Shown here in pieces: positions 1,268 through 55,003 of a DNA stretch of 64,000 bases. The notes beneath the pieces were generated by a model. That model saw only the letters and a program-made list of their open reading frames with translations, searched no databases and was not told the DNA's origin. This stretch comes from a virus. Each line of letters opens with the position of its first letter. Position 1 is the first letter of the stretch. The stretch spans positions 24,678-88,677 of the IMG/VR virus record IMGVR_UViG_3300030103_004672. One strand, written 5' to 3'. Position numbers and translations under genes: made by a program.

Positions 1268-1732
1268 ATGGCAAATACAGATAATAAATGTGCTAATCTA
1301 GAAGTACAAGATCATCACAAACATGCCGAAGATACATTTGGTTTAATTTATGACAAACAGCGAGAGCTCCAAGAAAGGTTAGGGTTTGATTTCTCTAATT
1401 ATACTCTTAAGGACGTTGCTGATTTTTGGTTTGTTAACAAACATGCTTTAGATGATGAAATGGGCGAAATGTTCGATGCACTTGGTGGTGTAAATGACGG
1501 TATAGCTAATGCAGCATGGAAGTATTGGAAGAAAGATAATTCGAAGGCATCAAAAATGTCTGTTAAAGATCTTTCAGAAGCTGACCGCCTTGAGTTATAT
1601 TATGAATGGATTGACGGTTTGCATTTCTACATGAACTTTGCGATTGCACTAGGCATGACAAGCAAAGACATCGTAAATTTATACATGGCAAAGAATGCAG
1701 AAAATTTTGACAGACAAGAAAGAGGTTATTAA
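1268..1732 (+). CDS. 56: dUTPase/dCTPase-like all-alpha NTP pyrophosphatase (gp56-like)
   Basis: A 154-residue all-helical protein of the dimeric dUTPase/MazG-type NTP pyrophosphatase fold. The metal-binding pattern is visible as LDDEMGEMFDALGG (around residues 60-73) and, later, EWIDGLHFYMNFA, followed by a C-terminal LYMAKNAENFDRQERGY segment typical of dimeric dUTPases. In T4, gp56 hydrolyses dCTP and dUTP, keeping unmodified cytosine out of phage DNA and supplying dCMP to the hydroxymethylase; a hydroxymethylase-like gene is present at 53162. Whether this protein accepts dCTP as well as dUTP cannot be read from the sequence. The polymerase gene starts 3 bases downstream. Confidence 0.75.
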   Translation: MANTDNKCANLEVQDHHKHAEDTFGLIYDKQRELQERLGFDFSNYTLKDVADFWFVNKHALDDEMGEMFDALGGVNDGIANAAWKYWKKDNSKASKMSVKDLSEADRLELYYEWIDGLHFYMNFAIALGMTSKDIVNLYMAKNAENFDRQERGY

Positions 1733-1735
1733 TAT

Positions 1736-3139
1736 ATGCTATTAGATGTTTCGCAGGAAGACGGTAACTTGATCGTATCGTACTATAATTTTGAAGGTAA
1801 GACTAGATTTAAACATTACGAATTAACATCAAAGGATTTGTACAATTGGTATCCATGTGATGCAAGTGATAAAAGAGCAGATCTTAAGATGAAGAACTGG
1901 GATGGTACACCAGTTAGAAAGGGTCGTACAAAGCATCTTAATAAGTATCGTGTTATTGAATACTTAGAGAACATACCTGAGCAAGATAAGAAGACTATAT
2001 TCGGATATGATTTTCCTAAGACATATTTTATTGATATCGAAGTTGAAGTAACTGATAGTTTCCCAGAACCTGAAAAGGCTGAGAATGCTATTACAGCTAT
2101 TTGTATAGTAACGCCTGCAAATCAATGTGTAGTTCTCGCAACACGAGACATTCCAAAGGAGCAATATGGTGCTATTGAAAACCAGATAAATGAACACTTC
2201 AAAAGCACTGGTGAGACATTTACATTTGACATGAAATGTTTTAAGTCTGAATACGACATGCTATACACATTTCTTAAGTCATTTGTAAGAAAGTTCCCTA
2301 TGATGACTGGTTGGAACTTTGTTAAGTTTGACTGGGCTTACATAGTAAATAGAGCAAAAAAGCTTGGGATAGATGCTTCAATAGCTTCACCCCTTGACAG
2401 GTTATTCAGCAACAATAATTATCCGTCACACGTTGGTGTTATGGATTACATGGAGATATATTCTAAGTGGGACAGAACTGTAAGTATCAAAGATGATCTT
2501 AAACTCGATACTGCTGGAGCTGCTGTACTAGGAATTAAGAAGATAAAGTATGATGGCACACTGCAGGATCTGTACGAGAAAGAATACTCAAAATACATAT
2601 TTTACAATGCTGTAGATACGGCTCTAGTACAACTAATCCATAAGAAGATTAAGACGATGGATATTGCGTTGACAATATCACATATGAGTAGGATTAGTAT
2701 ATTTAAAGCTGCCTCACCTGTTGCAATTACAGAATCTTTGTTATGTAAAGAATTCTTAAAGCAAAACAGAGTTATGGCAACTCTTGATGAGAAGAATACA
2801 AAAAGCAGACAGTATGAAGGTGCATTTGTAAAACAACCAATAACAGGCATGCATAACTCTGTTGCATGTTTTGACTTTGCATCACTTTATCCATCAATCA
2901 TGAGACAGATGAATGTCTCTCCTGAAAGTTTTGTAAAGAAGGTAGACCCTAAACATACGTCTGATGAAATGGCTGATGATAGAATAGTTGCTATAAATGG
3001 AGTCGTTTATAAGTCTGAGGAATCAATTCTAAAAAGGATTCTTGCAGATCTATATGGTCAGCGTAAAGAATATAAAAAGAAATCTTTCGAATTGCAGCAA
3101 AAAGCTTATGACCTCGAAAAAACCTTACCAAAAACATAA
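1736..3139 (+). CDS. 43: DNA polymerase, N-terminal part (split gp43: exonuclease, palm motif A)
   Basis: A 467-residue family B polymerase fragment of the T4/RB69 gp43 type. It has an N-terminal domain, a 3'-5' exonuclease domain with the Exo I signature FIDIEVE (Asp100, Glu102), and palm motif A as FDFASLYPSIMRQMNVSP with catalytic Asp380. It then enters the fingers (LYGQRKEYKKK) and stops in a charged helix ending LEKTLPKT. Motifs B (KxxxNSxYG) and C (DTDS) are absent here and lie in a separate gene at 12369. The two products together make about 845 residues, close to the ~900 of RB69 gp43. The break falls in the exposed fingers, so the two chains probably assemble into one enzyme. Confidence 0.93.
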   Translation: MLLDVSQEDGNLIVSYYNFEGKTRFKHYELTSKDLYNWYPCDASDKRADLKMKNWDGTPVRKGRTKHLNKYRVIEYLENIPEQDKKTIFGYDFPKTYFIDIEVEVTDSFPEPEKAENAITAICIVTPANQCVVLATRDIPKEQYGAIENQINEHFKSTGETFTFDMKCFKSEYDMLYTFLKSFVRKFPMMTGWNFVKFDWAYIVNRAKKLGIDASIASPLDRLFSNNNYPSHVGVMDYMEIYSKWDRTVSIKDDLKLDTAGAAVLGIKKIKYDGTLQDLYEKEYSKYIFYNAVDTALVQLIHKKIKTMDIALTISHMSRISIFKAASPVAITESLLCKEFLKQNRVMATLDEKNTKSRQYEGAFVKQPITGMHNSVACFDFASLYPSIMRQMNVSPESFVKKVDPKHTSDEMADDRIVAINGVVYKSEESILKRILADLYGQRKEYKKKSFELQQKAYDLEKTLPKT

Positions 3140-6022: not shown

Positions 6023-6775
6023 GTGGATAATTTAAACATTTATATAGTAGGACCATGTAGTGTGGAAAGTAGCTTTATTTTTGGATGCGTTGCAGAGAAA
6101 ATGACTAGCGCGATACCAGACGATAAGAACTGGTATTTAAAAGGAAGCTTTGACAAAGCGAACAGAACTAGTGTCGAAGCGCCTAGAGGTCCTGGAATTT
6201 ATGATTCTATTGATATTTTTGAAGATATTAAAGAAAAATTCACAAATATTAAAATCACTACCGATATCCACGAGCCCTGGCAGGCTGAAAAATTGAGGCA
6301 CATTGTTGATATGATCCAAGTTCCAGCATTTTTATGCAGACAAACTGATTTGATAAGAGAATGTGCACATAATTTTGATGTGATAAATGTAAAGAAAGGC
6401 CAATGGATGGATCCTGGATCAATGCGACATGTGGTTGAGAAGATACGTTATTATAATGAAGATGCAAAGGTATACATCACAGAACGTGGCACTCAGTTTG
6501 GATACGACAGGGTCATAGTAGACTATAGAGCTGTTGATATCATGAAGGAATTTTGCGATGGTGTCATATTGGATTGTACACATTCAACTCAACAGTTAGG
6601 GCAGGGAACTACTGGTGGTAATAGAAATCTTGCAAAGGCATATGTTAAAACTGCAAGAGAATTTGGTTATGATGGAATTTTTGCAGAAACACATCCAGCT
6701 CCAGATACTGCAATTTCTGATAAGGATAGCCAAATAGACTTAGAGTGGATGGCTAGCGTGATAAATACTATATGA
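6023..6775 (+). CDS. kdsA: 3-deoxy-D-manno-octulosonate 8-phosphate synthase (KdsA)
   Basis: A 250-residue TIM-barrel aldolase that condenses phosphoenolpyruvate with arabinose 5-phosphate to give KDO-8-phosphate, the committed step to the inner sugar of lipopolysaccharide. Family motifs appear in order: GPCSVES, GSFDKANRTS, ITTDIHEP, QVPAFLCRQTDL, NVKKGQWMDPG, ITERGTQFGYD, LDCTHSTQQ, and FAETHPAPDTAISD. It is slightly shorter than cellular KdsA (about 280). The start is GTG at 6023; no ATG gives an intact N-terminus. It overlaps the Nudix gene by 4 bases (ATGA). As a phage metabolic gene it may support or alter host LPS during infection (inference). Confidence 0.94.
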   Translation: MDNLNIYIVGPCSVESSFIFGCVAEKMTSAIPDDKNWYLKGSFDKANRTSVEAPRGPGIYDSIDIFEDIKEKFTNIKITTDIHEPWQAEKLRHIVDMIQVPAFLCRQTDLIRECAHNFDVINVKKGQWMDPGSMRHVVEKIRYYNEDAKVYITERGTQFGYDRVIVDYRAVDIMKEFCDGVILDCTHSTQQLGQGTTGGNRNLAKAYVKTAREFGYDGIFAETHPAPDTAISDKDSQIDLEWMASVINTI

Positions 6776-7230: not shown

Positions 7231-7410
7231 ATGATGGAAAAATTTGAAAACATTGAGACTTTGATTGAATCAGCAAGAGTAGAGGCTGAAAAATTCTATC
7301 AGAAAGGAAACAAAACAGCTGGCACTAGATTAAGAAAACTCATGCAGGATTTAAAGAACGCTGCACAAGAAGTTAGAGTAGAAGTACAAGAGACTAAGGC
7401 TAACCTATAA
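7231..7410 (+). CDS. Histone H1-like protein (Hc1 family)
   Basis: A 59-residue charged helical protein. The core AEKFYQKGNKTAGTRLRK, followed by LMQDLKNAAQEVRVEVQETK, matches the short Hc1/histone H1-like proteins common in Bacteroidetes, whose consensus has the same KFY.K.NKAAGTRLRK...EIK..AQ.IR.E..E.K pattern. Such proteins are thought to bind and compact DNA. Two adjacent ATGs (7231 and 7234) could serve as start; neither has a Shine-Dalgarno sequence. It follows the Nudix gene by 9 bases. A role in phage or host nucleoid organisation is inferred from the family. Confidence 0.8.
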   Translation: MMEKFENIETLIESARVEAEKFYQKGNKTAGTRLRKLMQDLKNAAQEVRVEVQETKANL

Positions 7411-7426: not shown

Positions 7427-7442
7427 TCGTATAATATTTATG
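7427..7442 (+). promoter_or_regulatory. Candidate early/middle promoter element (GTATAATATT)
   Basis: The AT-rich segment TTTTTCGTATAATATTTATG lies directly before the 7440 gene. It belongs to a small group of similar elements (T-run followed by GTTATATTA or GTATAATATT) ahead of non-structural genes, and it differs from the TGATATATAA box seen before late genes. Role inferred from repetition only. Confidence 0.35.
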
Positions 7443-8522
7443 GAAAAGCATACGCAGCTAAAGTACTTAACAGACTACATTAGTGATAAATCTACAAGTA
7501 TAGCAATCGCTGCGCTTGTAGGTAAACTAAGTCCAAAGGCGAGTTCACACAAATCAGGTTGGGCATACCACTTAGCAAACCAGTGCCATAATGCCGGTTA
7601 CGAAAACGTCACAGTAGTAACAGATACTACCACAAATTGGGATGATTTCGATGTCGTGCTAATTGAGCATGGGATGGAGTTCAAGGGCACTTTTAATATT
7701 TTCGGTGGTGCAAATGATGATCTTTATTATCAAATAACACGGATCTTTAGTTCTGCTAAGATGTTCAGCCTTCATCATGATATGCCTTGCATAGGTTCTT
7801 TGATAGAAAAAAGGCTGCATACTGGAAGCGACTTATTCAAGACGCTAGAAAGAAAAATTGAAGAGGTTAAAAAGATTTGTGCAAACAATATTACCAGAAT
7901 TGATTGCATCGAAAAAACCGACAAGCTATGTTTTGGTGACAGCCACTCATTTAGCCAATACACACCAGGATATATGACTAGTCGCCACGACGGTCTAACT
8001 ATGCACGGTGCATTAAAACGAGGTCTAGACACATATGTCTATCCTTGGATAAAGTCTCTAAGAATATACCTTGGAAATATCGACGTTAGGCATCATCTTA
8101 TGCGACAGCATAATCCAGAAATGGCTGTTGATAAATTACTAGCTCAATATGAAGATGGTCTTATGAAGCTACAAGAATCAGGAGTTGTGGATATAGAAGT
8201 TGTGCACACTTTACCAATAGAAAACGAGAGTAGAGCTTTGCCAAAAACTGGATACTACAAAGGTACTCCATTTACTGGAACATGGGAAGAACGAACTGAT
8301 TTGGTAAAGCAAATTAATAAAGGTATTGATAAAATGTGTGAAAGAAATGGTTGGAGTTCTTATAAGCATCCTGAGGTATTTTATAACCATATAGGTGAAC
8401 TTCCGTTTGACGTTATGGAAAAGCCAAAATCAGTACATATCGCTCGAGAATACTATAGATGGGATTTAGTAAACAATCGTAAAAACAAAAAGCTGATCAA
8501 GCAATCGATGTCTTTGTTTTAA
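7440..8522 (+). CDS. SGNH-hydrolase-like phage protein
   Basis: A 360-residue soluble protein. LCFGDSHSFSQYTPGYM (about residues 160-176) resembles block I (GDSx) of SGNH/GDSL hydrolases, and IYLGNIDVRHHLMRQ (about 208-222) resembles the GxND/catalytic region of that fold. If active it would be an esterase or deacylase-type enzyme, but the D-x-H block near the C-terminus is not obvious. It is followed 4 bases later by the 400-residue gene and then a PLP enzyme, so the three may work together, possibly on a modified nucleotide or surface glycan. Function unproven. Confidence 0.5.
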   Translation: MEKHTQLKYLTDYISDKSTSIAIAALVGKLSPKASSHKSGWAYHLANQCHNAGYENVTVVTDTTTNWDDFDVVLIEHGMEFKGTFNIFGGANDDLYYQITRIFSSAKMFSLHHDMPCIGSLIEKRLHTGSDLFKTLERKIEEVKKICANNITRIDCIEKTDKLCFGDSHSFSQYTPGYMTSRHDGLTMHGALKRGLDTYVYPWIKSLRIYLGNIDVRHHLMRQHNPEMAVDKLLAQYEDGLMKLQESGVVDIEVVHTLPIENESRALPKTGYYKGTPFTGTWEERTDLVKQINKGIDKMCERNGWSSYKHPEVFYNHIGELPFDVMEKPKSVHIAREYYRWDLVNNRKNKKLIKQSMSLF

Positions 8523-8526
8523 AATT

Positions 8527-9729
8527 ATGGAAATAAAAACAACCAAATACTACGACGAATATTTGAGGTATTTTAATTTAGCAAAGAGGCAACAGGATTC
8601 GAGCAATCTCGGACATGTGCCACACGCAGATTCAGATCTAGATGATGAACTAATGCATCACATTGAACTATACGATGTGGTAGAGAGAAAATATGCCGGG
8701 TTTTCACAGATTGTTAACGATTGTTTTTACGGATGGTCAGAAGATCACCCGTATTGGTCAAGAATGAATGCAGGTCTTTATACAACTCAAAGAAAGCAGG
8801 TTGCAACGAACTGGACTGGCAAGCAAAATCATTTTGATCTGGCAGAATGGCTTTATGTTTTTATACTTCATAGAGTCACAGGATCTGCTATTAACTATGC
8901 AACTAAGCCAAGTGGCTATCATAACACCCTTCTATTTGATTTATGGCAATCTGATACTATAGAACAAATGTGCAAACAGGTTAAGGAGGCAACAAAATCT
9001 TTTTACACATCTGTTGGCTATCAGTTTCCAGCATTCCCAAAGCCACCTGCGCCAAAATCAAATGCTGATTTTAGCTTTAGCACAAAGAGAGAATACGTGT
9101 ATAAAAGAGGCGGCGATTACTTTCTATGTGAGTTCGCACCTAGACTTGCAAGGGATATGGCGCATTTTCTTGAGCAGGGTGGCAAAAAGGATCTTAGAGA
9201 GCTTGGAGAATGGATGTTTAAATGGAATAAGGACAATGGACTAAGAGCTTACAAATTTCAATATGCAGCTGTTATTGCCGATGTTGCAGATTGGTTTCCA
9301 CAATATATCAATAGGGAATCTATGTTTTTCTATGGAACAAACGCGGTAGAGTGCATTGGTTATCTAGCAGATCCAATAAATGGCAAGGGCAAAAAATCAG
9401 AGCCTTTTTTAGATGCAGTCATGACAAGAATTTATGAAGATACTGGATCACTACCATATAATGCCGAGGATGTTGCATGTGACTTTATTCGTTGGATAGA
9501 AAATTACATGAGACCAGGTGCGGATTATAAGCATATCAACATGGACACTCTTTGGAACTCATCTACAATAATTGATCATCCGTTTGGTAGACAGAGGGCA
9601 ATGCTTGAGTTAGGGCTATTAGAATCTTTCAATGGAATGACCAATCACCCATCTGATGACAAAGTTATAAAAGCAGCTGGTATTGATGTAGATGAGTACA
9701 AAAAACGTGTTTCGAAACTTTATAATTAA
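8527..9729 (+). CDS. Helical phage protein, possible AGPT-pyrophosphorylase-like base-hypermodification enzyme
   Basis: A 400-residue, mainly helical protein that I do not recognise with certainty. Distinctive segments are FILHRVTGSAINYATKPSGYHNT (about 117-139), a mid-protein YAAVIADVADWFP, and FFYGTNAVECIGYL. The His-Arg motif plus an 'A..IADV' and 'GTNA' arrangement recalls the alpha-glutamyl/putrescinyl-thymine pyrophosphorylases, which swap the pyrophosphate on an activated hydroxymethyl base for an amine. That assignment is tentative. Context favours it: a PLP enzyme follows 4 bases downstream, and a hydroxymethylase-type gene and an ATP-grasp gene occur at 53162-55003. It could equally be an unrelated glycosylase-fold protein. 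Confidence 0.4.
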   Translation: MEIKTTKYYDEYLRYFNLAKRQQDSSNLGHVPHADSDLDDELMHHIELYDVVERKYAGFSQIVNDCFYGWSEDHPYWSRMNAGLYTTQRKQVATNWTGKQNHFDLAEWLYVFILHRVTGSAINYATKPSGYHNTLLFDLWQSDTIEQMCKQVKEATKSFYTSVGYQFPAFPKPPAPKSNADFSFSTKREYVYKRGGDYFLCEFAPRLARDMAHFLEQGGKKDLRELGEWMFKWNKDNGLRAYKFQYAAVIADVADWFPQYINRESMFFYGTNAVECIGYLADPINGKGKKSEPFLDAVMTRIYEDTGSLPYNAEDVACDFIRWIENYMRPGADYKHINMDTLWNSSTIIDHPFGRQRAMLELGLLESFNGMTNHPSDDKVIKAAGIDVDEYKKRVSKLYN

Positions 9730-9733
9730 GATT

Positions 9734-10621
9734 ATGCCACATAACAAACATACAGATAGTCTATCTAATCAAGATCTAAATCTAATGATGCCTAATCGTG
9801 AAGCATGGCTTGATTTAGCTGGAGATTGGGAAGATCCATTTGATGCTCCTACAATTATTGAACATGATGGCTTTAAAGTCGTTAGAGAAGATATGATGGG
9901 ATTTGGATCAAAGTGTAGATTTGGAGACATCTTAGTACAAAAGGCAGCTTCAGATACTCTTGTATATGTACAGCCTCGATACGGATTTGCAGGTATATCG
10001 CTTGCATATCTTGCCAAAAAGTACAATAAAAAATTAGTATTATTTAGTCCTAGCCAAAAACAAATATCAGATCACCAGGCAATATGTATAGAAAGAGGAG
10101 CTACAATGAAATTTAGAAGAATTGCAGCAATGCCAAATCTAAATAAAATAGCCGCAGATTGGGCTAAAGATAATGGTGCATTTTTCATTCCACTCGGATT
10201 AAGACATCCGTTAGTAACTGCAGCTGCCGTAAAAGTTGCATATGATTTAGCAGAGAACAATGGCTATCCAGAAGAAGTTTGGTCTGCAATATCAACAGGT
10301 GTGCTTCAACGATCTTTACAAATAGCGTGGCCAGATTCTAAATTCAATGCAGTTGCAGTTGCTAGAAATATAAAAAGAGGTGAAAGGGGAAAGGCAAAGA
10401 TGTGGTCACATCCAAAAGCATTTAACCAAAACGTGGATCAAAAATACTATCCTCCATTTCCTTCTGCGCTGAACTATGATGCAAAGGCTTGGGAATTTAT
10501 GAAAAGAAATGGATCTCCTGGCGCTTGGTTTTGGAATGTTGGGGGTGATCCTAAACCTGAATTCGATGAAACAAAAGACAAAACTGATTCACAGAGGGAA
10601 TGGGGAGAAATAAGAGATTAA
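9734..10621 (+). CDS. PLP-dependent enzyme, fold type II-like
   Basis: A 295-residue protein resembling the tryptophan-synthase-beta/ACC-deaminase fold. GFGSKCRFGDILVQKAA carries a likely cofactor Lys60 (compare the GGNKxRKLE motif of the family). It is followed by DTLVYVQPRYGFAGISLAYLA, a Rossmann-like second strand (KKLVLFSPS), and a candidate phosphate-cradle STGVLQRSL. The long segment DHQAICIERGA also fits fold type II spacing. I place the start at ATG 9734, 5 bases after the previous stop; an upstream TTG would overlap that gene. The substrate is unknown. PLP enzymes tailor hypermodified bases in some phages, which suits the upstream neighbour. Confidence 0.6.
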   Translation: MPHNKHTDSLSNQDLNLMMPNREAWLDLAGDWEDPFDAPTIIEHDGFKVVREDMMGFGSKCRFGDILVQKAASDTLVYVQPRYGFAGISLAYLAKKYNKKLVLFSPSQKQISDHQAICIERGATMKFRRIAAMPNLNKIAADWAKDNGAFFIPLGLRHPLVTAAAVKVAYDLAENNGYPEEVWSAISTGVLQRSLQIAWPDSKFNAVAVARNIKRGERGKAKMWSHPKAFNQNVDQKYYPPFPSALNYDAKAWEFMKRNGSPGAWFWNVGGDPKPEFDETKDKTDSQREWGEIRD

Positions 10622-11538: not shown

Positions 11539-12348
11539 ATGAATCACAAGAAAATACATGACTTAATAATCAAAAGGGCAAAAGAGAGAACTTTAGAAGG
11601 CTACTCCGAAAAACACCACATTATACCAAAATGCCTAGGCGGAACTGATGATCAAGATAATCTAGTACATCTAACAGCAAGGGAGCATTTTATCATACAC
11701 AAACTACTATGTGAGATCTACCCAAATGAATCAAAACTCCATTGGGCTGCATTTATGATGGCAACTGCACGAGGCAAACACATGGACAACCGAGATTACC
11801 GAATAGGCTCTAGAGAATATGAAAGGCTTAGAGAATCTTTAGAGATTAGTGACGAGACTAGGCGAAAATCAGGTATTGCAAACATTGGTAACAAGTATAG
11901 ACTAGGAAAAAAACATTCTGACGAAAGCAAAAAAAAGATGAGCCAGGCAGCTATGGGAAATACAAATTCGAGAGGCTATAAACACACTGAAGAAGCAAGA
12001 AAAAATATGAGTAAGGCTGCGAAGGCAAGAGATCGTAAACCACACTCTGGGGAAACTAAGCAAAAAATGAGTGATGCCTGGAAATTAAAAAAGGAACAGG
12101 GCTACGAGTCACCGATGAAAGGTATAAAGAGGCCTGAAGAAGTAAAGAAGAAAATATCTGCTTCTAAAACTGGTGTTAAGCGTGGCAAGTTCTCGCAAGA
12201 ATGGCTTGATAACATGTCAAAATCTCTAAAGGGAAAAGCGAAGGGCAAAATATGGATTAACAACGGTGTAAAGGGTAGCATGATACTCCCAGATGAGCCA
12301 ATTCCAGAAGGCTGGACACGTGGCATGCTTAGAAGAAAACAAAATTGA
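11539..12348 (+). CDS. HNH homing endonuclease with NUMOD3-type repeats
   Basis: A 269-residue free-standing homing endonuclease. The N-terminal HNH domain reads EKHHIIPKCLGG...DNLVHLTAREHFIIHKLL (about residues 23-60), with the paired His, Asn and distal His of the family. A central array of DNA-binding NUMOD3-like helices (KHSDESKKKMS, KHTEEARKNMS, PHSGETKQKMS, RPEEVKKKIS) follows, then a C-terminal WINNGVKGS...EGWTRGML module common to phage homing enzymes. It sits immediately upstream of the 3' polymerase fragment, suggesting that its invasion broke the polymerase gene and that it may still cut gp43 in relatives. Confidence 0.9.
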   Translation: MNHKKIHDLIIKRAKERTLEGYSEKHHIIPKCLGGTDDQDNLVHLTAREHFIIHKLLCEIYPNESKLHWAAFMMATARGKHMDNRDYRIGSREYERLRESLEISDETRRKSGIANIGNKYRLGKKHSDESKKKMSQAAMGNTNSRGYKHTEEARKNMSKAAKARDRKPHSGETKQKMSDAWKLKKEQGYESPMKGIKRPEEVKKKISASKTGVKRGKFSQEWLDNMSKSLKGKAKGKIWINNGVKGSMILPDEPIPEGWTRGMLRRKQN

Positions 12349-12371
12349 TAATTTAGTTATAATATTCAATG
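12346..12371 (+). promoter_or_regulatory. Candidate promoter element before the polymerase C-part
   Basis: TTTAGTTATAATATTCAATG spans the 20-base gap between the homing endonuclease and the 3' polymerase gene. It matches the GTTATAATATT/GTTATATTA elements seen before several replication or nucleotide genes. Its presence would give the downstream half of gp43 its own expression. Confidence 0.4.
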
Positions 12372-13505
12372 GATCGAAAATTAGAAAAAAAGTACGAAGA
12401 GTTAGCAGAGCTTAAAAAATTAGCAGGCGAGTATTATAACTACGAACAAGGAATCAAGCTCATGCTTAATTCGATCTACGGTGCATTTGGAAATCCATAC
12501 TTTTATTTCTTCAATGTTGACATAGCAGAAACTATCACACTTCAGGGTAAAGATGCTATTCTTTACACAGAAGAATTAGTAAACAAATACTTTAGAGAAT
12601 TTTGGCATTTAGATACGGATGCACACAATAAGATGGGTATCACCGTTACTGGAAAGATCAAGCAACCTGTAGGAATCTATATTGACACTGATTCAATTTA
12701 CATGAAATTTGAAGAAGTTATCAAAAACTCAGACTGGGAAGGTGATTCTAAAACTTTTATACTTAATTTATACAAGCATAGATTAGGAGAATACATTGAA
12801 CGCATTCTACAAAAATATGCTGATGACAACAACGCCGAAAACTTCTTAAGCTTCGAACTAGAAAGCATTGCAAAGAATGCTATCTGGTTAGCTAAAAAGA
12901 AATACATGCAAAATATAGTTTGGAAAGATCCTGACTTACATTATGATGATCTTACTAAGATCAGCGCTAAGGGATTTGAAATTATTCAATCATCTACTCC
13001 GATATTTGCAAGGCAGAAGTTAAAAGACTTATTAAAATACATCTTTTCTGTTGAAGAGCTTAGCATGAAGGATTTTGCAGGTCGTCTTAAAGAAATAAAG
13101 CGTGAGTTCAAGCTTGCAAACGTTGAAAATATAAGTTTTGCAAAAAAGGTAAACAATTATCAAAGGTATGTTCTAAACGACATAGATAGATTTGAGATTA
13201 CTAAAGGATGCCCTATCGGTGTAAGAAGTGCAGGATATCATAATTACTTGCTAAATAATTCAAATGCAAAAATGAAATACAAACCGCTTGGTAATGGCGA
13301 AAAGTTAAAAATGTATTTTTCTACAGATAGGCACTGTGATGTATTTGCATATGCACCTGGTGATTATCCTTATGAATTTGCACCTGAAATAGATTACGAT
13401 GTGCAATTTGAGAAAACTATATTAGATCCAATAAATCGGGTTATTAAGGCGATGGGATTCAAGCCATTTGATCGTAACTTGATTTATGCAGTGTCTTTAT
13501 TCTAA
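12369..13505 (+). CDS. 43: DNA polymerase, C-terminal part (split gp43: motifs B and C, thumb)
   Basis: A 378-residue second piece of the family B polymerase. It begins with a charged helix (RKLEKKYEELAELK), then motif B KLMLNSIYGAFGNP (Lys30, Asn34, Tyr37-Gly38), motif C YIDTDSIYM (Asp106, Asp108), and the thumb, ending GFKPFDRNLIYAVSLF. The N-terminal part (exonuclease and motif A) ends about 9.2 kb upstream at 3139. Start and end helices of the two pieces look contiguous, with no intein residues or extra domain. Catalysis needs Asp380 of the other chain and Asp108 here, so the two products must associate to polymerise. Confidence 0.94.
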   Translation: MDRKLEKKYEELAELKKLAGEYYNYEQGIKLMLNSIYGAFGNPYFYFFNVDIAETITLQGKDAILYTEELVNKYFREFWHLDTDAHNKMGITVTGKIKQPVGIYIDTDSIYMKFEEVIKNSDWEGDSKTFILNLYKHRLGEYIERILQKYADDNNAENFLSFELESIAKNAIWLAKKKYMQNIVWKDPDLHYDDLTKISAKGFEIIQSSTPIFARQKLKDLLKYIFSVEELSMKDFAGRLKEIKREFKLANVENISFAKKVNNYQRYVLNDIDRFEITKGCPIGVRSAGYHNYLLNNSNAKMKYKPLGNGEKLKMYFSTDRHCDVFAYAPGDYPYEFAPEIDYDVQFEKTILDPINRVIKAMGFKPFDRNLIYAVSLF

Positions 13506-51867: not shown

Positions 51868-52092
51868 ATGTTAATTGAAAATGATCAAAATAGATCAAAG
51901 TATATTGAGCGTGCGATTTATAACTACATAACAAAGACACTCAAAATAAGATTTGTATCAGGGCAAGTATACGAATACGAAAACTTTGATGAAGAAGTAT
52001 ATGACAAATTTATTAAGGCTGAATCGCAACAGGCTTTTTTCACAGAGCAGATCAAGCCAAATTATGATGGTACTGAACTTTTGCTTGATTAA
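51868..52092 (+). CDS. KTSC-domain protein
   Basis: A 74-residue protein that is essentially one KTSC domain: SKYIERAIYNYITKTLKIRFVSG then VYEYENFDEEVYDKFIKAESQQAFFTEQIKPNY. The usual consensus (S..I..i.Yd....L.v.F.sG.vY.Y..v....y..f..A.S.g.yf...I) is matched throughout. Function unknown; the domain is found with tRNA-synthetase and nucleic-acid proteins. It overlaps the GMP-kinase-like gene by one base. Confidence 0.8.
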   Translation: MLIENDQNRSKYIERAIYNYITKTLKIRFVSGQVYEYENFDEEVYDKFIKAESQQAFFTEQIKPNYDGTELLLD

Positions 52093-52568
52093 TGGGTAAG
52101 GTTATTTTAGTAGGTAAGTCAGCTGCTGGTAAGGATCACCTAAGAAAGATATTACAGAGCAGGGGCTTTAAATATGCAGTTTCTTACACAACGAGACCTA
52201 AGAGGGAGAAAGAGATAGACGGCTTAGATTATTTTTTTATAGAAAAGAAAGATTTTAACAATAAGCTATTGTCAGGGGAATGGTACGAATATGTAAAGTT
52301 TAATAATTGGTATTACGGAACAACTAGGAAACAGTTCAAAAACTGCAATCTATTTATAATGACACCAGCAGGTTTAAGCAAGGTCGATCCAATTGATAGA
52401 AAGCAATGTACTGTGATTTACTTAGATGTAAGCAATGAAGTAAGAATGCAGCGTTTATTGGACCGAGGAGATAATAATGATAGTTTAGAACGTAGGATGT
52501 CTGCAGACGATAGAGACTTTGAAACTTTTACAGATTTCGATATTAGAATAACAGAATCTAATTTTTAA
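52092..52568 (+). CDS. Guanylate kinase-like nucleotide kinase
   Basis: A 158-residue P-loop kinase. P-loop LVGKSAAGKDHL, then the GMP-binding motif SYTTRPKREKEIDGLDYFFI with the YTTR..R..E signature, and EWYEYVKFNNWYYGT, typical of guanylate kinases. It is shorter than cellular Gmk (about 200). It may phosphorylate (d)GMP, or a modified monophosphate, for the phage dNTP pool. The next kinase gene follows 3 bases downstream. Confidence 0.88.
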   Translation: MGKVILVGKSAAGKDHLRKILQSRGFKYAVSYTTRPKREKEIDGLDYFFIEKKDFNNKLLSGEWYEYVKFNNWYYGTTRKQFKNCNLFIMTPAGLSKVDPIDRKQCTVIYLDVSNEVRMQRLLDRGDNNDSLERRMSADDRDFETFTDFDIRITESNF

Positions 52569-52571
52569 CAC

Positions 52572-53165
52572 ATGATAGTAATTATAGAAGGCCAAGACCG
52601 TACTGGTAAAGATACACAAACTGAGCTATTAAGACAAAAGTATAAACACTTATCATTTCATAAGCTACACTACTCAACACCGCCAACTAAAACAATATAC
52701 ACTAGCATTGATTACAGTTCAAAGCTATATGATGGTATGTTCAAAATGATCCATAGTGCTAGTGAAACAGATCAAAACTTACTTATAAACAGAGCACACC
52801 TAGGTGAATCTGTTTACTCTCCGTTATACCGAGGATATTCTGGTGATTACATATTTGACATTGAAAAACAATATCTAGAAACACTAACAGATGATTTATT
52901 TCTAATTGTCCTAGTAAATGATCCATATTTTGTAATGTCTAGAGATGACGGTGACAGCCACCACAAAAATAGCGAAGAACGCATTGCTAAAGAGCGTGAT
53001 ATGTTTACTCGTGCATATATGAAAAGTGGTATTACTAACAAGCTCTTAATAAATTGTAGAGATTTAACTCCTGATGTGATTCACTACGATATAAGTAAAT
53101 TTATTGAAGACACCATTCATAGTAGATTGGTAAGTCATGATCAAATACAAATACAGTTTCAATGA
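52572..53165 (+). CDS. Thymidylate kinase-like deoxynucleotide kinase
   Basis: A 197-residue P-loop kinase with EGQDRTGKDTQTELLRQKY (Walker A GQDRTGKD and a TQ pair as in thymidylate kinases), a DR.H-like segment LLINRAHLGESVYSPLYRGY and a lid with DDGDSHHKNSEERIAKER. It may phosphorylate dTMP, hydroxymethyl-dCMP or a similar monophosphate; T4 uses an unrelated-looking gp1 for that. Kinases of this fold also act on hydroxymethylpyrimidines in DNA in hypermodifying phages. It overlaps the hydroxymethylase gene by 4 bases, which ties it to that pathway. Confidence 0.8.
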   Translation: MIVIIEGQDRTGKDTQTELLRQKYKHLSFHKLHYSTPPTKTIYTSIDYSSKLYDGMFKMIHSASETDQNLLINRAHLGESVYSPLYRGYSGDYIFDIEKQYLETLTDDLFLIVLVNDPYFVMSRDDGDSHHKNSEERIAKERDMFTRAYMKSGITNKLLINCRDLTPDVIHYDISKFIEDTIHSRLVSHDQIQIQFQ

Positions 53166-54031
53166 TAGCAACATTTAAAGGTCAAACATTTGCAGATGTA
53201 TATCAAGAACTTTTAACAGAGCTTTACAGCGATCCGCATTGTGTTAGCAATCCTCGTGGAATGGCTTGTAAAGAAATGCTTAATGTAAGTCTTCATATTG
53301 AAGATCCAGAATTTCCACTATACGAGAATGAACGCAGGTCTAGCCAATTACGCTATATAGCAGGTGAGCTATTATGGTATTTCACAGGTCGTAATGATAT
53401 TGACTTCATATCTAAGTATTCAAAGTTTTGGGCACATTTAGATAATGGTGACGGCACGGTTAATTCTGCTTATGGTAATTTAATATTCAGGGAAGAGAAT
53501 GAACATGGTGTTTCCCAGTGGCAGTGGGCATACGATTCATTAGTTGCAGATAAAGACACTAGACAGGCAGTGTTACATTACAATAAACCTAGTCATCAAT
53601 TTAAAGGTAATAAGGATTTTGTTTGTACGATGTACTCAAACTTTCATATTAGAAATAATAAGTTATATCTGAAGACTGCAATGAGATCTAATGATGCAAT
53701 ATTAGGTACTCCTACAGACATAGCATTCTTTTGTTTTTTGCAACAACAGATGCATCGACTTCTACTTCCACATTATCCAAAGCTAGAATTAGGAAGTTAT
53801 ACTCACACGGTTGACTCTATGCATATTTATGAAAGACACTTTGATCTAGTTAAGGATATGCTAGCTAATGATTTTCAGGCATTTTCATTCCCAAAAATAG
53901 ATCACAATCTAGTTGATTACAAAGGTATTCCATCAAACACCTTAATAAATACAGTATATAGCATAGTCAACGGTTCTATTCTTAATCCATCTACTAAAAT
54001 TATGACATGGATTTATGATAATGCCAAATAG
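53162..54031 (+). CDS. 42: Thymidylate synthase-fold enzyme, probable dCMP hydroxymethylase
   Basis: A 289-residue TS-family protein. Catalytic Cys155 is in DFVCTMYSNF, phosphate-binding Arg175-Ser176 in MRSND, and the substrate-contacting His221/Tyr223 in MHIYERH. At the place of TS Asn177 (GLPFNIASY) it has Asp186 (LGTPTDIAFF). Asp at that position is a hallmark of T4 dCMP hydroxymethylase gp42, which prefers dCMP over dUMP and makes 5-hydroxymethyl-dCMP. The gp56-like gene at 1268 fits the same pathway. A TS or dUMP hydroxymethylase role is less likely but not excluded. Confidence 0.8.
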   Translation: MIATFKGQTFADVYQELLTELYSDPHCVSNPRGMACKEMLNVSLHIEDPEFPLYENERRSSQLRYIAGELLWYFTGRNDIDFISKYSKFWAHLDNGDGTVNSAYGNLIFREENEHGVSQWQWAYDSLVADKDTRQAVLHYNKPSHQFKGNKDFVCTMYSNFHIRNNKLYLKTAMRSNDAILGTPTDIAFFCFLQQQMHRLLLPHYPKLELGSYTHTVDSMHIYERHFDLVKDMLANDFQAFSFPKIDHNLVDYKGIPSNTLINTVYSIVNGSILNPSTKIMTWIYDNAK

Positions 54032-54052
54032 ACTCAAAAAAAATAGCTAATA

Positions 54053-55003
54053 ATGAAGCTACTAGATTTTAACCAATTTATCAACGAGAATTTCTCTGAA
54101 CAATACCCAGGCCTTAAGAAGGTATATTTAGCTACGAAAAGATCTAGTGGTCAGTATTGGTTATCTTACAAGGGATTTGCAGGCAACAAATTCTTTACAC
54201 AAATAACTGAAAAAAATATTGATGATTTAGACATCAATAAGGATTACCCTGTTTTAACTTACAATAAAGAGCTTGTTACTAAGCTTATTGATTCTGGAAG
54301 AATAAAAGAAGAAAACGTTTACAATCTTCCAAAGCACGTAGATTTATCAGGATCTAAAGAAGAATTTCACAAGTTAGCTGGTGATCATGAAAATGTTCCG
54401 ACTACAGTTTATACTAAGGAAGATGCCCTAGAGAAACTTAATTTCCCAATCATCGCAAAACCCTCACAAGGCCACAGCGGAATGGGAATACAAATTTTTA
54501 AGACTAAAGAAGATTTTGAAAAGGCAGACGAAAATAAATTTGATACATTCTCTGAATTTATAGATAAGGCTGAAGAGCAGAGGTTTTTTGTATTTAAAGG
54601 AGAGCCGTTCTTTTGGCAAGAAAGACAGCCTAATAATGCAAAGGCAAAATCAGGCGACGGCGGAGCAGATTCAAAAATGAATTTTAAGTATTGTAGAAAG
54701 GATCCGGCTAATATTCCATCTGAATATGCAAGTGTTATCAAAGAATTTTCTAAGATGTATGAGAACCTACCTATGATATGTTTTGACATGATGAAAGATA
54801 AAAATGGTAAGGTATTCGTTATTGAGCCAAATAGCCAACCAGGTCCACCATTTGATTCGACTGCGAAGATGTATGAGAAGATTTACGAAGACTTCTACGG
54901 TGAGAAGATGGATAAGGCATCTAAAGATAAGCTCGATGAATATTCTAAGCAAATGATTGAGATGACTTTAGCAGATGATTCAGGAAGATTTTCAACTGAA
55001 TAA
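54053..55003 (+). CDS. ATP-grasp ligase with capsid-targeting-like N-terminus
   Basis: A 316-residue ATP-grasp protein. The central NFPIIAKPSQGHSGMGIQIF is the ATP-binding glycine loop, RFFVFKGEPFFWQ follows, and ICFDMMKDKNGKVFVIEPNSQPGPPFD holds the metal-binding Glu/Asn pair. Such enzymes join a carboxylate to an amine or thiol using ATP. The first 14 residues, MKLLDFNQFINENF, resemble the T4 capsid-targeting sequence MKTYQEFIAEA cut by gp21. The enzyme may thus be packed in the head and injected, or it may act on hydroxymethylated bases with the upstream gene. Substrate unknown. Confidence 0.78.
   Translation: MKLLDFNQFINENFSEQYPGLKKVYLATKRSSGQYWLSYKGFAGNKFFTQITEKNIDDLDINKDYPVLTYNKELVTKLIDSGRIKEENVYNLPKHVDLSGSKEEFHKLAGDHENVPTTVYTKEDALEKLNFPIIAKPSQGHSGMGIQIFKTKEDFEKADENKFDTFSEFIDKAEEQRFFVFKGEPFFWQERQPNNAKAKSGDGGADSKMNFKYCRKDPANIPSEYASVIKEFSKMYENLPMICFDMMKDKNGKVFVIEPNSQPGPPFDSTAKMYEKIYEDFYGEKMDKASKDKLDEYSKQMIEMTLADDSGRFSTE

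Follow-up and report, generated by a model that had tools for sequence, protein, structure and literature searches.

The P1-P2-P3 cassette and its occurrence

Three genes follow one another closely on the plus strand of the window, the whole 64,000-nucleotide stretch analysed here, which comes from a fragmentary record (88.7 kb) of a marine T4-like phage. P1 (7440..8522, 360 aa) has an N-terminal Rossmann-like and a C-terminal SGNH-hydrolase-like domain and is the constant gene of the locus; P2 (8527..9729, 400 aa) is a putative base-flipping transferase; and P3 (9734..10621, 295 aa) encodes a fold-type-II PLP enzyme whose Lys60 codon lies at 9911-9913. The ORF list gives gaps of 4 bases between P1 and P2 and between P2 and P3, as the initial annotation had described. 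The reading frame of P3 opens at 9692, and an alignment of relatives places the conserved start at the ATG at 9734. Directly upstream of the cassette lies a KDO-8-phosphate-synthase-like gene (clusters c149/c150), absent from related loci except L005, the window's own near-copy.

We show that P1-P2-P3 is a cassette kept across uncultured T4-like phages, its genes recurring together too regularly for coincidence. In IMG/VR, P2 loci number at least 580 and P1 loci at least 590; within the stretches fetched, P1 was present in 100 of 115 P2 loci and P3 in 84 of 115, and 37 of the 43 P2 loci having at least 4.5 kb on each side carried both. About 13 of the 115 had neither P1 nor P3 nearby, on contigs that are short, and several P2 loci without P1 and P3 adjoin an HhH-GPD protein and a cluster c4 protein. 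At locus L311, P1 and P2 are fused as one protein. Among 50,697 phage records, P2 had zero matches, P3 had three, all distant, and P1 matched only in Aeromonas and Stenotrophomonas T4-like phages and in Tenacibaculum phages. None of these searches returned a T4 match, which bears out the earlier statement that the genes have no T4 counterpart, and the window had no match at the DNA level in the 'phages' collection.

Predicted folds of the three proteins

P1, which matches PHROGs 13881/17781, was modelled with AlphaFold2 at a pLDDT of 89. A Foldseek search of the model against the PDB returned GDSL/SGNH proteins (E=6e-6, prob 1.00; TMt 0.65 to the GDSL-like lipase 3p94), so that the SGNH-hydrolase fold suggested previously is confirmed at the level of the model. 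The corresponding motifs are G166-D167-S168-H169, N213-I214-D215-x-R217-x-H219 and H333; across the alignment GDSH and His333 are invariant and the block III Asn is nearly so, while the Asp three residues before His333 in block V is not conserved (K/Q/R/S/G instead). Kinship of P1 with the T4 beta-glucosyltransferase was also considered and rejected, having produced one weak match (E=0.1) and none among the listed structure matches.

The segment of P2 earlier described as conserved-looking, HRVTGSAINYATKPSGYHNT (residues 115-134), contains residues invariant across 36 relatives (R116, G119, S120, I122, N123, Y124, P128-Y131 and N133). P2 matched no Pfam, PHROG or NCBIfam profile, and its AlphaFold2 model (pLDDT 87.7) is all-helical. 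Searched against BFVD, the model matched A0A6J5L8T5, named 'Amino acid:DNA transferase domain-containing protein' (E=2e-39, 58% identical), and A0A6J5LCY1, an ADDT (E=1.2e-3, TM 0.39-0.46), with weaker matches to HMUDK of PhiW-14 and SP10. At thresholds as loose as E=10, neither PF18723 (HMUDK_hel / aGPT-Pplase1) nor PF18724 (ADDT / aGPT-Pplase2) matched P2 or any of its 36 relatives, and the records carrying P2 gave no match either; the SN1 positive control reached 1.9e-48 with PF18724. On the evidence of the model, the fold of P2 appears related to the amino acid:DNA transferase and 5-hmdU-DNA-kinase helical enzymes, outside PF18723/PF18724. The initial assignment of P2 as AGPT-pyrophosphorylase-like therefore stands as apparent fold kinship to ADDT and HMUDK-helical proteins and falls as a profile match, the check proposed along with it. 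Comparing profiles, P2 showed no significant similarity to ADDT, HMUDK_hel or AC; these comparisons have little power, because ADDT and HMUDK_hel are themselves poorly joined (E=0.016). The cluster C4 profile matched each of the 36 P2 sequences, the best at E=1e-4 in a very small set, and hhalign gave E=0.011; this is no more than suggestive of P2 and c4 being paralogues.

When the P2 model was searched against the PDB, no match was significant; the solved ADDT structures 25qc/8z2m did not appear, and the weak matches that did were to HhH glycosylases (OGG1, AGOG, AlkA-like). Together with the PF00730 HhH-GPD protein upstream of P2 in one phage group, these matches could point to P2 and its partners working in DNA repair or base excision, on hydroxymethylcytosine or host DNA. 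We consider this very improbable, as it leaves unexplained the PLP enzyme, the inositol and UDP-galactopyranose mutase modules found at the same slot in relatives, and the fold matches to named transferases.

The earlier designation of P3 as a fold-type-II PLP enzyme agrees with its match to phrog_7093 (E=7.7e-37) and, below the curated cut-off, to PF00291 (E=4e-4). Lys60 and G189-x-L-x-R193 are invariant in 14 sequences and, judged by position, would be the Schiff-base lysine and the glycine-rich phosphate loop. SN1_023, the PLP enzyme of the M6-type thymidine-hypermodification cluster, belongs to the same PHROG (E=2e-160) and was found by the P3 profile at 5e-6. The M6/SN1-type cluster consists of a hydroxymethylase, an HMUDK kinase, aGPT-Pplase1/HMUDK_hel, a PLP enzyme, a radical SAM protein and ADDT. 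It shares with the cassette phage the clustering, in a phage genome, of a hydroxymethylase, a helical protein of apparent transferase fold and a phrog_7093 PLP enzyme. In contrast, the cassette has neither the HMUDK kinase nor an adjacent radical SAM protein, P2 falls outside PF18723/PF18724, and the SGNH protein P1 is absent from the SN1 cluster.

The nearest solved structures to P1 are carbohydrate and lipid esterases, and those to P3 are cysteine synthases. These neighbours, along with the KDO gene upstream, would also fit a cassette for the synthesis or tailoring of a small metabolite, or for modifying a protein, the cell envelope or a host product; P1 would then be an esterase, P3 a lyase or synthase for amino acids and P2 an unrelated helical protein. 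Such a role is unlikely given that fold relatives of P2 are named as amino acid:DNA transferases and HMUDK, that P1 is fused to an HMUDK_hel domain in Aeromonas phages, that P3 and the M6-type PLP enzyme share one PHROG, and that DNA polymerase, RNR and a dUTPase_2 gene lie beside the slot; the KDO gene, moreover, recurs only in the near-copy of the window.

Hydroxymethylase and probable target base

A thymidylate synthase homologue of the dCMP-hydroxymethylase type is encoded at 53162..54031 (+). Its product was aligned to T4 gp42 (1b49) and CMP hydroxymethylase, and its nearest solved structures are CMP/dCMP hydroxymethylases. Asp186 occupies the position of Asn177 in thymidylate synthases, where N177D sets the preference for dCMP (PMC8670742) and Asp177 serves as a marker of cytosine modification (PMC8670742; PMC12783734). 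All 23 hydroxymethylase-like sequences of P1/P2 phages (the window and 22 relatives) carry Asp at this position, whereas all five controls, true thymidylate synthases and the M6-type hmdU enzyme, carry Asn. Because the window and the 22 relatives checked uniformly carry the cytosine-specific Asp, the decorated base is probably hydroxymethylcytosine, a difference from the thymidine target of M6/SN1. The characterised ADDT/HMUDK/PLP pathways known to us all act on hmdU, which would favour thymine or hmU as the decorated base; both the conserved Asp and the nearest solved structures speak against it, and we regard this as a slim prospect.

Several nucleotide genes accompany the hydroxymethylase. 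A thymidylate-kinase-like gene (52572..53165, +) overlaps its start by 4 bases, and a guanylate-kinase-like gene (52092..52568, +) ends 3 bases upstream of the former; their products may be, respectively, an hm-dCMP kinase and a second nucleotide kinase. A dUTPase_2 (PF08761)-family gene at 1268..1732 (+), proposed to encode a gp56-like dCTPase/dUTPase, belongs to a family (cluster c7/d5) conserved beside the cassette in related phages. The ATP-grasp gene at 54053-55003 was considered as a cassette member and set aside: since a similar gene (cluster d23) also occurs in inositol-type phages, it seems to belong to the general gene set of this phage group. The hydroxymethylase, thymidylate-kinase-like and ATP-grasp genes that the initial annotation reported at 52572-55003 are thus all present, but the nucleotide kinases and the ATP-grasp gene would be at most putative parts of the cassette. 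The DNA-kinase step of hypermodifying phages invoked there found no counterpart: a search of 17 target records with PF18748 (5-hmdU DNA kinase) gave no match over the cut-off, against 1.8e-19 for the SN1 control, so that these records lack the activation chemistry of hmdU phages.

Exchangeable modules and the proposed pathway

The slot holding the cassette adjoins DUF6378, DNA polymerase and RNR genes, and in relatives P1 stays constant while P2 and P3 are replaced by other genes, a feature overlooked in the earlier reading. The 67 P1-centred loci comprised 42 of an inositol type, 20 of the P2 type, one Galf-type and four with neither; none had both. The inositol-type module consists of an inositol-1-phosphate synthase (PF01658, E=1.5e-22), a HAD-like protein, an FkbM methyltransferase and an HMUDK_hel protein. 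AC, the module equivalent of P2, matched PF18723 at 32.1, 30.4, 28.4 and 40.3 bits, above the cut-off of 25. ORF233c of Aeromonas phage 44RR is a P1-HMUDK_hel fusion of 795 aa, with an N-terminal half corresponding to P1 (33% identity) and, where the window has P2, an HMUDK_hel-related C-terminal half with homologues that score above the PF18723 cut-off; P1 was present in 59 of 60 loci found by this C-terminal domain. A neighbouring Na+/solute symporter gene in 44RR was considered as an inositol importer, and its nearest solved chains are sodium/glucose cotransporters. In Aeromonas phage 25, a UDP-galactopyranose mutase and a glycosyltransferase-like protein adjoin P1 in place of P2/P3. Phages 44RR, 31 and 25 have gene 42 and no glucosyltransferase, and the group placed on their hydroxymethylcytosine was reported as unknown (Petrov et al. 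2010, PMC2993671).

Overall, we put at roughly two in three the probability that the cassette serves as the decoration module of a pathway hypermodifying cytosines in phage DNA, with the group added by the P1-P2-P3 phage probably small and amino-acid-derived. The dCMP hydroxymethylase encoded at 53162, to judge strongly from its Asp, would produce hm-dCMP; the kinases would carry this to the triphosphate while the dCTPase-like enzyme drains dCTP, so that hydroxymethylcytosine is incorporated in DNA. From its fold and context, P2 might then flip the modified cytosine out and couple its 5-CH2 to an amino acid or a comparable nucleophile, and P3 might trim the added group, decarboxylation being the likeliest reaction. 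Since P1 likewise serves phages whose modules are for inositol or sugars, its step would not vary with the group attached; most plausibly, P1 could act through a covalent serine on hydroxymethylcytosine or the growing adduct, either activating the former for transfer or acylating/deacylating the product. The outcome would be a bulky cytosine shielding the phage genome from host nucleases.

Alternatively, P1 itself could be the transferase, or the hydroxymethylcytosine activator replacing the DNA kinase, with P2 or HMUDK_hel merely flipping the base as in the SP10-like kinase-helical HMUDK. Consistent with this are the constancy of P1 among varying helical partners, the P1-HMUDK_hel and P1-P2 fusions, which mirror the kinase-helical pairing, and the negative HMUDK kinase search. 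To our knowledge, however, SGNH folds are esterases and acyltransferases and not kinases, and the neighbours of P1 in phage 25 are a UDP-galactopyranose mutase and a glycosyltransferase-like protein, a setting in which hydroxymethylcytosine would require no activation. We deem this arrangement possible though doubtful.

The proposed hypermodification pathway resembles T4-type glycosylation of hydroxymethylcytosine (gp42 plus alpha/beta-GT) in its T4-like phage, gp42-homologous hydroxymethylase and dUTPase_2-family gene, whereas its decoration genes are ADDT-like, PLP and SGNH; the T4 beta-GT profile had no match in the window's record, a negative that carries no information because its controls gave no match either. 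5-Carbamoyloxymethyl-C (MetaGPA) and the CmoX/CmoY 5-carboxymethyl-C amide are likewise non-sugar cytosine decorations in phages (PMC8670742; PMC12783734), made by a carbamoyltransferase, or by a Cx-SAM transferase and an AMP-forming ligase, none described as P1-, P2- or P3-like. The literature searched contained no amino-acid-derived, (methyl)inositol or galactofuranose cytosine modification. The core of the original proposal of an undescribed cytosine-decorating pathway is thus supported by the folds of P1 and P2, the PHROG of P3 and the dCMP-type hydroxymethylase, although not by a P2 profile match or an HMUDK kinase.

It is an even call whether P1 marks a family of swappable-module loci that decorate hydroxymethylcytosine in T4-like phages. 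Cytosine would then receive an amino-acid-derived group from P2/P3, (methyl)inositol from the module of inositol-1-phosphate synthase, HAD-like protein, FkbM and HMUDK_hel, or galactofuranose from that of UDP-galactopyranose mutase and the glycosyltransferase-like protein, with one constant SGNH enzyme working alongside each. The 44RR P1-HMUDK_hel fusion with its symporter, and the phage 25 mutase and glycosyltransferase-like protein with P1, are candidate DNA protection systems that can be checked in cultured phages. Amino-acid-type hypermodification is known on uracil, in thymidine pathways, and here the same kind of machinery would act on cytosine, in a very abundant uncultured group of phages. 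The cassette would represent an undescribed, modular DNA disguise of viruses, and a constant enzyme with swappable modules suggests a route by which phages may quickly change that disguise.

Layout and linkage of the cassette

The cassette comprises three genes on the same strand, encoding an SGNH-domain protein (P1, 7440-8522), an all-helical protein (P2, 8527-9729) and a fold-type-II PLP enzyme (P3, from the ATG at 9734 to 10621, in a frame open from 9692), with both intergenic gaps being 4 bases long. Directly upstream lies a short ORF for a histone H1-like Hc1 protein (7231-7410; PF07432, E=4e-22). A KDO-8-phosphate-synthase-like gene (6023-6775), with a NUDIX hydrolase gene immediately after it, is also upstream and shows no conservation with the cassette; farther upstream the record encodes NrdA, NrdB, a family B DNA polymerase (its N-terminal part) and a dUTPase_2-family protein. 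The polymerase is encoded in two separate pieces about 9 kb apart (1736-3139 and 12369-13505) with the cassette between them, and a NUMOD3/HNH homing-endonuclease-like gene (11539-12348) precedes the second piece.

A search of 50,697 named phage records found no P2 relative, and at least 580 P2 loci occur in IMG/VR. On the stretches fetched for 115 P2 loci, P1 was present as well in 100 and P3 in 84; both accompanied P2 at 37 of the 43 loci with at least 4.5 kb on either side. Gene order varies (P1-P2-P3, P2-P3-P1, P2-P1-P3) yet the linkage is kept, which argues for a functional unit. An additional gene, c4, occurs in 36 loci, mostly right after P2, of which it may be a paralogue; a search of the 88.7-kb record containing the window did not find it. 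One phage group (L044-L059) carries an HhH-GPD glycosylase-like protein (PF00730) upstream of P2 and c4 (e.g., L045:819-1595), with P1 and P3 missing on the available contigs.

Protein folds and the target base

The initial annotation had tentatively called P2 AGPT-pyrophosphorylase-like, a likeness that holds at the level of predicted fold but not of family profile: P2 matched no Pfam profile. Its AlphaFold2 model is all helical (pLDDT 87.7), and the best match among predicted viral structures is an "Amino acid:DNA transferase domain-containing protein" (58% identical, E=2e-39), with a second protein of that name at E=1.2e-3 and the 5-hmdU DNA kinase proteins of PhiW-14 and SP10 below significance. 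Nothing in the PDB matched the fold significantly, HhH DNA glycosylases being among the weak matches. Judged by fold, P2 may thus work in a manner resembling the aGPT-PPlase group.

P3 matches phrog_7093 (E=8e-37) and, weakly, PF00291, with Lys60 and a G-x-L-x-R loop invariant in the alignment. The PLP enzyme encoded in the SN1/M6 cluster for thymidine hypermodification falls in the same PHROG (E=2e-160), and the P3 profile recovered it from the SN1 record at 5e-6. P3-related PLP domains also occur inside a ParB-DNA methylase polypeptide of Erythrobacter phage R6L (L001:6885-9316) and in a Microcystis phage protein named DNA modification methylase.

The M6-type pathway, in which HMUDK, ADDT and PLP enzymes hypermodify thymidine, is known to act on hmU (PMC9476957), whereas the target of P1-P2-P3 is most likely cytosine. 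CMP and dCMP hydroxymethylases are the best alignment partners of the TS-like protein (53162-54031), which carries Asp at residue 186, the equivalent of E. coli TS 177. The same Asp occurs in 22 P1/P2-phage relatives, among them those of 44RR, 25 and avDM9; Asn stands there in one bacterial TS, in three TS enzymes from Aeromonas phages and in the enzyme of SN1. Since the N177D switch is established to set dCMP preference (PMC8670742), this residue points to cytosine as the most likely modified base.

Alternative modules beside P1

The N-terminal half of Aeromonas phage 44RR ORF233c (795 residues) is P1, and its C-terminal half weakly matches HMUDK_hel, the 5-hmdU-kinase helical domain (PF18723). 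Searching with this C-terminal half returned 60 loci, 59 with P1; the sole exception is truncated. Many sit in the slot that also houses P2-type loci, made up of a DUF6378 gene, P1, a module, a dUTPase_2-family gene, DNA polymerase, NrdB and NrdA. The module there (L127-L185, L278-L344) encodes inositol-1-phosphate synthase (PF01658), a small HAD-like protein, an FkbM methyltransferase and an HMUDK_hel protein exceeding the Pfam cut-off, and is likely an inositol-type DNA decoration module. A C5-cytosine-methyltransferase-like gene (PF00145) adjoins it at L137:7490-8683.

A separate P1-centred search added 67 loci, some on contigs overlapping those fetched earlier so that the counts are not fully independent: 42 were of inositol type, 20 of P2 type, one of UDP-galactopyranose mutase type, four had neither and none had both. 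No P3 turned up in the inositol-type genomes tested, and none in 44RR or phage 25. In the motA-nrdC.10 slot, Aeromonas phage 25 carries P1 with UDP-galactopyranose mutase and a glycosyltransferase-like protein (L258:1332-4603); in 44RR this slot instead contains a Na+/solute symporter along with the P1-HMUDK_hel fusion. On one contig (L311), a fused P1-P2 protein is encoded by one open frame of 786 residues.

Caulobacter phage Cr30 also has the inositol synthase/HAD pair, next to a true ADDT (PF18724, E=1e-52) and a TAGT-like glycosyltransferase (L346:3732-8257). In Stenotrophomonas phage IME-SM1 the pair is embedded in a cluster of 7-deazaguanine genes (folE/QueC/QueE; L345:5995-9693), where inositol is perhaps placed on deazaguanine. 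These modification loci lend independent support to inositol as a DNA decoration.

Reported phage cytosine decorations include glucose, arabinose and other pentoses, carbamoyl and carboxymethyl-amide (PMC8670742, PMC12783734, PMC12838424, PMC6024577), and phages 44RR, 31 and 25 have gene 42 and lack glucosyltransferase genes (Petrov et al., PMC2993671). One paper describes a phage inositol synthase simply as a bacteria-like gene (PMC9025141), and in the openly readable literature searched we found neither inositol nor galactofuranose linked to phage DNA, although parts of this scheme may have been predicted earlier.

A putative decoration pathway

The best reading, at a probability of roughly two in three, is that the cassette is a genuine, conserved DNA-cytosine decoration cassette. 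The analysis shows gene content, linkage, folds and residues; we infer that hmC would be made at the nucleotide level and polymerised into DNA, after which P2 would attach an amino acid to the flipped-out base and P3 would decarboxylate or otherwise trim the attached group.

P1 would perform a step common to all modules. Its AlphaFold2 model (pLDDT 89) has a C-terminal domain resembling GDSL/SGNH hydrolases (structure search E=6e-6, probability 1.00); GDSH (166-169) and His333 are invariant and Asn213 nearly so, the usual SGNH Asp three residues ahead of the His is unconserved, and its PHROGs (13881/17781) carry no functional annotation. The P1 fusions and the missing HMUDK kinase, for which the phage records searched gave no match, favour a candidate role as activator or partner of the transferase, while the SGNH fold and the galactofuranose context favour acyl-transfer tailoring of the outer group. 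More broadly, the chances are about even that P1 forms the base of a modular decoration system whose modules would supply amino-acid, inositol or galactofuranose groups.
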